Positions 14,267 through 51,835 of a stretch of 56,747 nt of DNA are shown here, piece after piece; the first letter of the stretch is position 1, and each line of letters opens with the position of its first letter. Made by a program: the position numbers and the translations under genes. Location: contig JBBDMM010000014.1 of assembly GCA_040878325.1 (NCBI GenBank), forward strand, positions 1 to 56,747. The letters run 5' to 3'. Under the pieces are notes generated by a model. It ran no database searches. It worked only from the letters and a program-made list of their open reading frames with translations, and was not told the DNA's origin. Origin of the DNA: Acidimicrobiia bacterium. Its GTDB lineage: Bacteria > Actinomycetota > Acidimicrobiia > Spongiisociales > UBA11373.

Positions 14267-14287
14267 GCGATTGGCGATTGGCGATTC
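14267..14287. repeat. Tandem heptamer GCGATTG, three copies
   Basis: Three abutting 7-bp units, the last ending in C instead of G. They lie between the methyltransferase and the zinc-ribbon gene. The same unit recurs at 16810-16823, and its complement ends the degenerate array at 20273-20321. Confidence 0.85.
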
Positions 14288-14501: not shown

Positions 14502-14614
14502 ACGAAGGGGTTTCGGTCGAAGTCGCGCCCTTCATAAGCAAAAAGAAGAATGGTGCGGAAGAGCGAAAGGCGAAACCCGGCGTTCGCGTCCGAGACTCAA
14601 CGCCATTCCTGCCT

Positions 14615-14635
14615 GGAGACTGGGGACTGGAGACT
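14615..14635. repeat. Tandem heptamer GGAGACT, three copies
   Basis: GGAGACT, GGGGACT, GGAGACT, placed immediately downstream of the stop of the Fe-S oxidoreductase gene. It is the same unit as the seven-copy array at 42281-42329. Confidence 0.85.
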
Positions 14636-14640
14636 GGGTC

Positions 14641-16842: not shown

Positions 16843-16935
16843 GGCGTGCTCGCTGGGTCCGCTGCCCCCTCCGTCACCGCCGAAGACGGCGGTGCCACCT
16901 CCCCCGCCGAAGACGGCGGAGGAGGACGCACGTGG
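16843..16935 (-). repeat. Palindromic repeat module with twin GCCGAAGACGGC hairpins
   Basis: Read leftwards, the order is the leader GCGTCCTCCTCCGCCGTC, GGGGGAGGTGG, a hairpin (16875-16894, CACCGCCG arms, AAGA loop), CGGAGGGGGCAGC and AGCGAGCAC. A second hairpin (16904-16919) is in the leader. The same block order is found at 31.1-31.6 kb and 51.6-51.8 kb with other hairpins in the variable slot. It lies upstream of the methyltransferase gene starting at 16966. Confidence 0.75.
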
Positions 16936-21100: not shown

Positions 21101-21121
21101 GAAGAGACGCTACCAAGAGAG

Positions 21122-21234
21122 TCAAGATTCAAGAATCAAGAACCAAGGACCAAGAAGCAAGAACGCGTCGGGGGGTACCCGACGCGTTCTGTCGAATTGC
21201 GAATTGCGAATTGCGGGGCCGAGCGAAGCGAGGC
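21122..21234. repeat. Compound element: TCAAGAA x6, hairpin, GAATTGC x3, GAGCGAAGCGAG
   Basis: Six 7-bp units of the TCAAGAA type (21122-21163) lead into a hairpin with 11-bp arms (AACGCGTCGGG / CCCGACGCGTT, 21162-21188). TCTGTC, three GAATTGC units (21194-21214) and the palindrome-like GGGGCCGAGCGAAGCGAGGC follow. A second copy with fewer units lies at 24184-24278. The element fills the gap between divergent genes, so promoters for both must lie in or beside it. Confidence 0.8.
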
Positions 21235-31109: not shown

Positions 31110-31640
31110 AGCAGAGAAGGGTTCTCCTCCGCCGTCTCCGACGGGGGAGGTGGCTGCCGGAAAAAGAAGCGTCCTCCTCCGCCGTCCTCGGCGCGGGAGG
31201 TGCCGAGCGCAGCGAGGCGGAGGGGGCAGCCAAGCGAACGATGTGAGCCGACAGCGTGCGGCCCAACGAGATCTTCAAGACCGGGCCCAGGCTCGCACGC
31301 AGAGTCAGCTGCCCCCCTCGCAAGGAACCCAAAGGGTTCCCGCACTCCCCGGGAGACGCAGAAAAAAGAAGCGTCCTCCTCCGTCGTCCTCGACGGGGGA
31401 GGTGGCTGCCGGGCAATCGCCCGGCAGACGGAGGGGGCAGTGGAGACAGAGGCACTCCGACGACAGTGCCTCCGAAAGTCGGTTGACGGGCCGCCCGTCA
31501 ACCGAAGACGGCCCTTTCGGATCCAGTCCTGCTCGCAGGGGGCTCACTTCGTTCGCTTAGCTGCCCCGCTCGCCCCTCCGGGGCACTTCCCCTCGGAATA
31601 CCGGGGGGAGACGCTCGGACAGAAGGTCCTCGTGCTGGTC
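31110..31640 (+). repeat. Block of stacked palindromic repeat modules
   Basis: This gene-free stretch holds three leader blocks (TCCTCCGCCGTC...GGGGGAGGTGG at about 31125, 31175 and 31375) and three G-rich blocks (GGAGGGGGCAGC type). Between them lie different hairpins: GCCGAGCGCAGCGAGGC, a GGAACCC/GGGTTCC pair (31324-31340) and CTGCCGGGC/GCCCGGCAG (31406-31427). A tail hairpin with GGTTGACGGG arms (31481-31503) and two end blocks finish it. The end blocks contain GCTGCCCC, a hairpin (31572-31584) and GGGGGGAGACGC. The rest of 31096-31696 shows no gene. Confidence 0.8.
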
Positions 31641-31696: not shown

Positions 31697-32389
31697 ATGA
31701 CCGAGCCGAGATTCATCCCCTACCGACCACCCCGGCTCCCCCCCGAGGAAACCCGGCGGCGGGCGCGGGAGTTCTACGAGATGCTCGATGGCCGGCGTAG
31801 TGTCCGGATGTTCTCCCCCGACCCGGTGCCCCGCGAAGTCATCGAAGACCTCGTCCGAACCGCGTCGACCGCTCCCTCTGGTGCCCACCGGCAGCCGTGG
31901 CGGTTCGTCCTGGTCGGTGATCTCGAAGTGAAGACTGCGATCCGCGACGCCGCCGAGGCCGAGGAGCGCGAGAACTACCTGGGGGGCCGCCTCCCCCCGG
32001 ACTGGCTCGAAGCCCTCGCTCCGCTGGGCACGGATGAGAACAAGCCCTACCTGGAGATCGCCCCCTGGCTGGTGGTGCTCTTCGAGGAGCGGTACCAGGT
32101 GGACGCCGACGGCGCACGGCGGAAGAACTTCTACGTCAAGGAAAGCGTCGGCATCGCCGCCGGGATGTTCGTGGCGGCAGTGCACCACGCCGGCCTGGCG
32201 ACGCTGCCCCACACCCCCAGCCCCATGGCATTCCTGGCGAAGGTGCTCGGCCGGCCCGAGAACGAGCGACCGTTCGCCCTCTTCCCGGTGGGCTACCCGG
32301 CACCCGACTGCGTGGTACCCGACATCCAAAGAAAGCGCCTCGAAGAAGTGATCGCCGACCCCCCGGATTCTGCAGCGGGCAGCGGGTAG
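31697..32389 (+). CDS. Nitroreductase-family flavoprotein (iodotyrosine-deiodinase-like)
   Basis: A 230-residue FMN enzyme. The N-terminal RRSVRMFSPDPVPREVIEDL and APSGAHRQPWRFVLVGD are the FMN-phosphate-binding motifs, and the C-terminal GLATLPHTPSPMAFLAKVLG with PFALFPVGYPA is the second FMN contact. The long lid between (LPPDWLEALAPLGTDENKPY) resembles BluB/IYD-type members that act on aromatic or halogenated substrates. The stop codon lies inside a heptamer array (32372-32399), so the last five residues are repeat-encoded. Confidence 0.85.
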   Translation: MTEPRFIPYRPPRLPPEETRRRAREFYEMLDGRRSVRMFSPDPVPREVIEDLVRTASTAPSGAHRQPWRFVLVGDLEVKTAIRDAAEAEERENYLGGRLPPDWLEALAPLGTDENKPYLEIAPWLVVLFEERYQVDADGARRKNFYVKESVGIAAGMFVAAVHHAGLATLPHTPSPMAFLAKVLGRPENERPFALFPVGYPAPDCVVPDIQRKRLEEVIADPPDSAAGSG

Positions 32390-32420
32390 CGGGCAGCCGG
32401 GCCGAGCGAAGCGAGGCCCT
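32372..32420. repeat. GCAGCGG heptamers x4 followed by GAGCGAAGCGAG palindrome
   Basis: GCAGCGG, GCAGCGG, GTAGCGG, GCAGCCG, then GGGCCGAGCGAAGCGAGGCC. The second part is the same motif that ends the compound element at 21215-21234. The array overlaps the end of the nitroreductase gene and its TAG stop is formed by the third unit. Confidence 0.8.
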
Positions 32421-42184: not shown

Positions 42185-42329
42185 AGTCTCCAGTACCCAG
42201 TCCCCAGAGACAGAGGGTCCGAGAAGCGTCCTCCCCCCGGTCTTCGGCGGGGAGGACGTCTGTTCTCTTCCTGTCTTCCTGGAGACTGGAGATTGGAGAC
42301 TGGAGACTGGAGACTGGAGACTGGAGACG
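42185..42329. repeat. Inverted heptamer arrays flanking a 10-bp-stem hairpin
   Basis: Left arm: AGTCTCC, AGTACCC, AGTCCCC (42185-42205), the complement of the GGAGACT unit. Centre: a hairpin with CGTCCTCCCC and GGGGAGGACG arms around 42227-42258, which resembles the leader of the palindromic module. Right arm: seven GGAGACT-type units (42281-42329). The structure lies 35 bases upstream of the glycosyltransferase start. Confidence 0.8.
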
Positions 42330-47744: not shown

Positions 47745-47773
47745 GGTCGCCCAGCGACGATAGTGGCAGCCCG

Positions 47774-47801
47774 CCTCCCGCCTCCCTCCTCCCGCCTCCC
47801 G
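47774..47801. repeat. Tandem heptamer CCTCCCG, four copies
   Basis: CCTCCCG, CCTCCCT, CCTCCCG, CCTCCCG, 30 bases upstream of the rfbC start. The same unit recurs at 50956-50983. Confidence 0.8.
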
Positions 47802-50935: not shown

Positions 50936-50955
50936 CGATGCAGGAAGCCTGCCCG

Positions 50956-50983
50956 CCTCCCGCCTCCCGCTTCCCGCTTCCCG
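50956..50983. repeat. Tandem heptamer CCTCCCG/CTTCCCG, four copies
   Basis: Two CCTCCCG units followed by two CTTCCCG units, directly upstream of the GT2 gene start and abutting a palindromic module. Confidence 0.8.
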
Positions 50984-50984
50984 C

Positions 50985-51068
50985 GCCGCCGTCTTCGGCA
51001 GTGGCGGAGGGGGCAGGAGGCAGGGAAGAAGCGCCTCCCCCGCCGAAGACGGCAGGGGGAGGACGCTC
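50985..51068. repeat. Palindromic repeat module, left flank of the DUF559 gene
   Basis: CCGCCGTCTTCGGCAGTGGC, then GGAGGGGGCAGG, then the leader block in opposite orientation (GCCTCCCCCGCCGAAGAC ... GGGGGAGGACGC). Both orientations of the family meet here. Confidence 0.65.
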
Positions 51069-51537: not shown

Positions 51538-51595
51538 CAGTAGGACGCAAAGTCCGGTTGAAGCCAGAAGACGGGCCCAGTCCCGCTCACGGTGG

Positions 51596-51835
51596 CATCC
51601 TCCCTCGTCTTCGACGGGGGAGGTGGGGAACCCTCCGGGTTCCTGAGGAGGGGGCAGCCCAGCGAACGAAGTGAGCCGACAGCGAGCACCCTGACCACGG
51701 TGCCTCTGGAGGACGGTTGACGGGCCGCCCGTCAACCGAAGACGGCCTGACGGGTCCAGTCCTGCTCGCAGGGTCGGCTGCCCCCCTCGCCCCTTCGGGG
51801 CACTCCCCCCGGAAATACCGGGGGGAGACGCAAGG
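51596..51835 (+). repeat. Complete palindromic repeat module, right flank of the DUF559 gene
   Basis: The order is a leader (TCCTCCCTCGTCTTCGACGG), a variable hairpin with GGAACCC/GGGTTCC arms (51627-51643), GGAGGGGGCAGC, GCGAACGAAGTGAGCCGAC and a GGTTGACGGG-armed hairpin (51715-51737). GTCCAGTCCTGCTCGCAGGG, a GCCCC/GGGGC hairpin (51789-51801) and a CTCCCCCCGG/CCGGGGGGAG hairpin with an AAATA loop (51803-51827) complete it. It is the fullest copy in the window and can be aligned block by block with 31110-31640. Confidence 0.8.

Follow-up and report, generated by a model that had tools for sequence, protein, structure and literature searches.

The window analysed here, 56,747 nucleotides long, is an entire contig (C14) of an Acidimicrobiia genome of 2.21 Mb in 18 contigs, and contains exact copies of the purine tract GGAGGGGGCAGC at positions 22, 16861(-), 31219, 51647 and 56717(-). 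Its start and its end are contig ends that each lie inside a repeat copy, which indicates that the assembly breaks at the repeat. A sequence-only reading had described a family with constant blocks and exchangeable hairpins around these sites, and every constant block it named was found in its place. Alignment of the copies gives a unit with the order Y, loop, R1 (together forming hairpin H1), a variable hairpin slot, the purine tract R2 and a tail. H1 is composed of GCGTCCTCC-arm, loop and arm-GGGGGAGG, its arms being Y and R1, and R2 is GGAGGGGGCAGC. In a complete element, a left unit is joined by a linker, which may contain a palindrome, to an inverted right unit ending CTCCCCCCGG..CCGGGGGGAGACGC.

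The contig start truncates a forward-strand unit (1-33), leaving its slot hairpin CCGGGC/GCCCGG (1-21) and R2 (22-33), and a central-loop hairpin GGATGCCGGGC/GCCCGGCATCC without strand (74-98) follows downstream of R2. A single reverse-strand unit (16861-16929; R2 16861-16872, slot CACCGCC/GGCGGTG 16873-16897, H1 16898-16929) lies between divergent genes, on the start side of both. The gene-free block at 31.1-31.6 kb proved to be a composite of a damaged unit and two pairs rather than a single element. The damaged unit is reduced to an H1 hairpin remnant (31123-31150, forward). The first pair opens with a forward left unit (31169-31230) consisting of H1 (31169-31200), the tandem-GA slot GCC-GA-GC-GCA-GC-GA-GGC (31201-31218) and R2 (31219-31230), followed 3' of R2 by the optional tandem-GA hairpin GCGAACGATGTGAGC (31234-31248, forward), and closes with an inverted right unit (31308-31359, reverse) of R2' (31308-31319), slot GGAACCC/GGGTTCC (31320-31343) and a shortened H1' (31344-31359). 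The second pair comprises a forward left unit (31371-31441; H1 31371-31402, slot CTGCCGGGC/GCCCGGCAG 31403-31429, R2 31430-31441), the strandless central palindrome TCGGTTGACGGGC/GCCCGTCAACCGA (31479-31505) and a reverse right unit (31542-31614) with a tandem-GA hairpin (31542-31556), R2' (31560-31571), slot GCCCC/GGGGC (31572-31584) and H1' (31585-31614).

Further along, an H1-like hairpin (51031-51066) and a slot-like hairpin (50985-51005) probably represent a decayed unit on the reverse strand (50985-51066). The pair at 51.6 kb has a forward left unit (51595-51658; H1 51595-51623, slot GGAACCC/GGGTTCC 51624-51646, R2 51647-51658), a central palindrome CGGTTGACGGGC/GCCCGTCAACCG without strand (51714-51738) and a reverse right unit (51777-51831; R2' 51777-51788, slot GCCCC-GAA-GGGGC as read on that strand 51789-51801, H1' 51802-51831). 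Between left unit and palindrome lies GCGAACGAAGTGAGC (51662-51676, forward), which had been listed as a constant block and is itself an optional tandem-GA hairpin, GC-GA-AC-GAA-GT-GA-GC. Finally, the contig end truncates a reverse-strand unit (56717-56747) to R2 (56717-56728) and part of the slot. Tandem-GA hairpins of the GGGCCGAGCGAAGCGAGGCCC type also stand alone, outside triplex units, at 32398-32418 of the window and at other sites of the genome. The window contains eight short tandem arrays as well, all of period 7 (14267-14286, 14613-14637, 21118-21163, 21193-21215, 32372-32402, 42279-42328, 47770-47801 and 50947-50984), the units of which are mostly unrelated in sequence (GCGATTG, CTGGAGA twice, AGAATCA, CGAATTG, GCAGCGG, CCCGCCT and GCCTCCC). 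Elsewhere in the genome, similar heptamer arrays flank a large number of triplex elements, and such arrays recur in a genome of the same genus (G001).

An inverted partner accompanies many units, R2 being complementary to the partner's R2'. The median length of the paired elements, most of which come from Alphaproteobacteria, is 113 nt (n=54). At the element ends, 2-3 nt of the flanks show additional, covarying complementarity (mean 2.45 against 0.78 when permuted), and DNA folding of two window elements gave z = -5.5 and -7.0. Left and right slots were identical in none of 42 pairs; unlike arms have likewise been reported for TMECO pairs (PMC4666352) and REP heterodimers (PMC3733652). Direct tandem units were seen on contigs C9 and C18 (periods of about 57-60 and 83 nt), so that head-to-tail multiplication of single units is possible too. 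The DNA flanking two elements forms a longer perfect palindrome around each (20 and 8 bp), which gives the impression of an insertion into the loop of a pre-existing hairpin, and a unit with the slot ATCGGCC-GCA-GGCCGA lies directly behind the apparent 3' end of a tRNA gene (contig C6, 246200-247000).

Pattern searches across the genome counted 36 exact copies of GGAGGGGGCAGC and 13 of the reversed control; nearly all the exact copies are preceded by a hairpin slot. Related copies were found in G001 and in two genomes of the same family (G004 and G010), and the element sequence of G010 contig C167 also occurs in VGBK01000167.1, from an Actinomycetota MAG. A strict pattern run across 198 genomes of the phylum matched this genome only, so the exact subtype is patchy. 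The repeat has relatives in Actinomycetota, Alphaproteobacteria, Ruminococcus and Lewinella: when R1 and R2 were fixed and the slot was left free, the pattern matched more than 120 stretches in species genomes, among them those of Caulobacter, Parvularcula, Hyphomonadaceae, Sphingomonadales, Ruminococcus, Lewinella, Acidimicrobiia and others. Four Caulobacter genomes contain 96, 59, 34 and 28 right-type units and Parvularcula maris contains 62; the reversed-control pattern had no match in these genomes. Plasmids yielded two weak partial matches and phages five, with no polymorphic series; Rfam returned chance-level matches only, none above the gathering score, and a literature search by sequence string retrieved no bacterial repeat paper on this family.

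The slots of this genome include CCCC-GAA-GGGG, GGCCC-GAA-GGGCC, CACCGCCC-GCA-GGGCGGTG, CTGCCGGGC..GCCCGGCAG, GGAACCC..GGGTTCC and GCC-GA-GC-GAA-GC-GA-GGC. That such slots are palindromic beyond chance, a point raised with the first description of the family, is borne out by comparison with shuffled controls: the longest perfect stem of the 27 distinct slots averages 5.63 bp against 3.17 (sd 0.17), and 23 of the 27 fold better than their shuffles at p<=0.05. The remaining four form one class, of the GCCGA(A)GCGAAGCGAGGC type, whose stem contains tandem G-A mismatches, which the energy model barely credits. A first scan found no perfect stem of at least 3 bp in the slot of 31 of 185 parsed units; about half of these belong to the tandem-GA class and the rest include mis-parsed units.

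Stem sequences vary and the loops follow rules. In a census of hairpins with a stem of at least 5 bp across all loci collected, the slot triloops read on the purine-rich strand are GNA in 46 of 61 cases, with all four middle bases represented, and TNC once, against 107 GNA (6%) and 94 TNC among 1812 background hairpins of the same loci. Slot tetraloops are GNNA in 9 of 17 cases (GNRA in four), TTCG being absent, and the neighbouring H1 loops are less enriched than the slots (GNA in 7 of 47 triloops). Tandem GA/GA accounts for 12 of the 16 symmetric 2x2 internal loops of the slots, within stems as different as GCC-GA-GC, GCC-GA-CC, TGGGT-GA-GC and TGCT-GA-AC; this class occurs in the present genome and in a Ruminococcus MAG. 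Tandem GA steps are stable in DNA. The GNA and GA excess is confined to the purine-rich strand. The p-values of this study ignore the shared ancestry of the copies, a concern that is lessened, not removed, by the fixed loop ends with a free middle base and by the occurrence in several phyla.

GNA and GNNA loops form extra-stable minihairpins in single-stranded DNA (PMC4686876), from which the purine-rich strand probably folds as single-stranded DNA rather than RNA. An RNA-level role may also be considered for this strand, since RNA, too, can form sheared GA pairs. The loop rules match those of the d(GCGAAGC) minihairpins of Hirao and Yoshizawa, as described in PMC4686876, where they are known from synthetic DNA, whereas here they belong to a natural repeat; our literature search returned no report of GNA/GNNA minihairpin enrichment in a natural repeat family.

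The two purine tracts are related by a second rule, R2 being the mirror of R1 and not its direct copy. Left units combine GGGGGAGG with GGAGGGGG; in right units, GAGGGGG accompanies GGGGGGAG or GGGGGAGC. Scoring the number of Gs after the A in R1 against the number before the A in R2, in the 85 distinct units whose tracts were not fixed by the search patterns, the A position agrees in 74 (48 two-two and 26 one-one; some off-diagonal cells are parser errors that were kept in the counts), with a Fisher p of 3e-13 that overstates independence given that the copies are related. Such mirror symmetry is not demanded by Watson-Crick pairing and is demanded by an antiparallel purine third strand. Y, R and R tracts on one strand, with the second purine tract mirroring the first, are the arrangement of the class II intrastrand triplex motif, which forms a triplex in vitro in the E. 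coli TMECO repeat (Holder et al. 2015, PMC4666352). The same authors saw no triplex protection of TMECO in vivo and obtained a normal duplex when the complement was present (PMC4666352).

The present repeat shares with TMECO / PIT (Holder et al. 2015, PMC4666352; Hoyne, Maher) the Y-R-R order, a G/C-rich composition, many intergenic copies, inverted pairs of two unlike types and a high turnover between strains. It differs by its stem, GGGGGAGG or GGGGGGAG instead of GGGNGAGGG, and by its second loop, which has 3 nt in TMECO / PIT and 1-6 nt in the class II definition, and is here an exchangeable-hairpin slot of about 10-43 nt; accordingly, stem sequence and loop both depart from the TMECO consensus CCCTCNCCCN3-6GGGNGAGGGN3GGGNGAGGG. 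As the ITxF search for triplex motifs admitted only loops of 1-6 nt (PMC4666352), a hairpin-bearing second loop would have escaped earlier searches. On our best reading, what is new is the hairpin slot in place of the second loop, within a known kind of repeat, the intrastrand triplex repeat.

The G-runs of R1 and R2 could also suggest a G-quadruplex-forming repeat with a hairpin loop, and a switch between triplex and G4 is known for archaeal repeats that resemble them in composition (PMC8044849). We consider this very improbable, as the mirror position of the A and the Y arm are conserved although a quadruplex needs neither, and G4 was excluded for TMECO by NMR (Holder et al., PMC4666352). 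Those archaeal repeats, the recurrent PQS of Methanomicrobiaceae, are likewise interspersed and intergenic and form a purine-motif triplex in vitro, but they have the C tract 3' (another triplex class), short loops and no hairpin slot (PMC8044849).

Other repeat classes share part of this organisation. The GTAG and CGTC REPs and BIMEs are palindromic and form inverted dimers, preferentially heterodimers, but REPs are single hairpins of 20-40 bp with no mirror purine tract (PMC3733652). An origin as a GTAG REP with its RAYT was rejected, the Y1 transposase being lacking: Y1_Tnp (PF01797) was absent from this genome and 39 relatives, in which control profiles did match. The CGTC REP type is also devoid of a transposase, and the copies of this genome carry GCGTC at both element ends; however, CGTC REP stems start with AT pairs and have loops of 4-5 nt (PMC3733652), whereas those observed here start with CC/CT and have different loops. 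The CIR repeats of Caulobacter (Chen and Shapiro 2003, reviewed in PMC2229807) resemble the paired elements by their length of about 110 bp, their two arms and linker and their alphaproteobacterial host. According to the review they are defined by GANTC sites, which only 8 of 54 paired elements contain; on the basis of its description, some CIRs may belong to the triplex repeat family.

The sequence-only reading had seen the GGAACCC/GGGTTCC hairpin in the left slot of one element (51624-51646) and in the right, inverted-unit slot of another (31320-31343), and had suggested that hairpins move between positions. Both occurrences are confirmed, but they are weak evidence of movement and could be a coincidence. 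A comparison of orthologous positions in close strains proved more informative. At 11 gene junctions of three Caulobacter genomes, whose coding DNA is 93-95% identical, elements were either replaced or shared, with no clean empty site. Two junctions carry the same element with the right slot switched between GTCGC-GNA-GCGAC and GTCGGC-GAA-GCCGAC, both arms having changed together. At another, the left slot loop is GTA or GAA and a foreign hairpin is inserted into the right slot in one genome. One junction has just half of the element common to the genomes, and one has the order of the two halves reversed in one genome. The three genomes carry three different hairpin repeats at three junctions, and at others a different repeat replaces the element in one genome. 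Exchange is thus real, at the level of the slot and of the whole element. Unlike hairpin repeat families substitute for each other at the same Caulobacter junctions; repeat turnover at gene ends is general and wider than the triplex repeat family. A search for empty sites in G001, whose coding DNA is 84-87% identical to that of the window genome where aligned, gave no usable pair, the neighbours of the window loci tried not being in shared order in this assembly of 420 contigs.

Each new slot is another member of the pool, which favours recombination between copies over stepwise mutation within this small sample, and we infer recombination as the exchange route. A mutational by-product, in which template switching at stable minihairpins makes perfect palindromes with neither selection nor function, is consistent with both arms changing together, with the tandem units on C9 and C18 and with GNA minihairpins as natural nucleation points. 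It is nevertheless improbable, as it accounts neither for the R1/R2 mirror rule nor for flanks conserved across phyla, nor for the recurrence of identical hairpins in numerous copies and species. A MITE-like element that a known transposase class moves in trans by recognising its hairpin ends would fit the inverted paired ends, which amount to the terminal inverted repeats of MITEs, the tens of copies per genome and the presence/absence differences at orthologous sites. The lack of Y1_Tnp makes this, too, a poor prospect, as do replaced sites that hold other repeats instead of being clean and empty; moreover, neither a target-site duplication nor a gene-bearing version was found.

The surroundings of the elements, defined from automatic and approximate ORF calls, show a marked bias. 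The paired elements with clear neighbours, mostly from Alphaproteobacteria, lie between convergent (14) or codirectional (17) genes and never between divergent ones (0/31), as compared with 124 of 511 background gaps (24%). The distance from stop codon to element is at most 20 nt in 39 of 45 cases, with a median of about 8, and the strand read as mRNA just past the stop codon in Alphaproteobacteria is frequently the purine strand. These observations, together with the retention of some hairpin repeat at orthologous gene ends even where the family differs, argue for RNA-level 3'-end elements, in which transcribed hairpins past stop codons would end or protect mRNAs and hairpin identity would be free, so that repeat families interchange. 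We regard this explanation as unlikely on several grounds. The bias is absent from the present genome, where divergent sites are also occupied, as by the copy at 16.86 kb, and in the two blocks of the window that were tested no element contains a T-run after a hairpin that would make an intrinsic terminator. The loops are of the DNA type (GNA, GNYA as frequent as GNRA, no TTCG), an RNA hairpin has no evident use for the R1/R2 mirror symmetry, and E. coli PIT motifs have neither promoter nor terminator activity, as cited in PMC4666352.

Taken together, the observed anatomy, mirror rule, loop rules and exchange lead us to consider it probable that these repeats are a dispersed family of paired intrastrand-triplex repeats, with a hairpin slot as second loop and slots exchanged between copies. 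Triplex folding itself is predicted from the sequence. The purine-rich strand would become single-stranded in replication, transcription or repair; Y and R1 would pair as a hairpin, R2, an antiparallel third strand of purines, would fold back onto R1, and a compact hairpin formed by the slot would bridge R1 and R2. Provided that the fold is all that counts, the slot would accept any very stable DNA minihairpin, which would leave the stems free to vary and keep the GNA/GNNA loops and tandem GA/GA. Slots and half-elements pass from one dispersed copy to another, gene conversion or replication template switching at the structure being the likeliest routes, and unlike hairpins on the two arms would avoid one long perfect palindrome. 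The elements would probably persist as non-coding, fast-replaced structures, tolerated or used at gene ends, and their copying enzyme is not a Y1 (REP-type) transposase of this genome.

The initial proposal of cassette exchange or selection for structure, unlike REP or ERIC elements, finds support in both of its halves: hairpins switch on both arms and whole elements are replaced at orthologous Caulobacter loci, and slots are palindromic beyond chance with fixed loop and internal-loop types on variable stems. The uniform duplications with non-palindromic slots that would have spoken against it were not what we observed. To that proposal are added the mirror-repeat (triplex) logic, the organisation in inverted pairs and the known relatives.

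It is an appealing, still tentative possibility, to which we give slightly less than an even chance, that these cross-phylum repeats are under selection for a fold of single-stranded genomic DNA, combining a purine-motif triplex scaffold, a plug-in minihairpin slot and cassette exchange. Bacterial triplex repeats are long known, but neither a function nor a selection signature had been attached to them; the slot supplies the latter. The natural slot variants on one scaffold record the hairpins that were accepted, and these match the rules of synthetic single-stranded DNA; they would therefore allow one to ask directly whether genomic DNA folds in this way in cells. The fast replacement at gene ends of Caulobacter, a standard laboratory genus, makes the mechanism of their spread testable.
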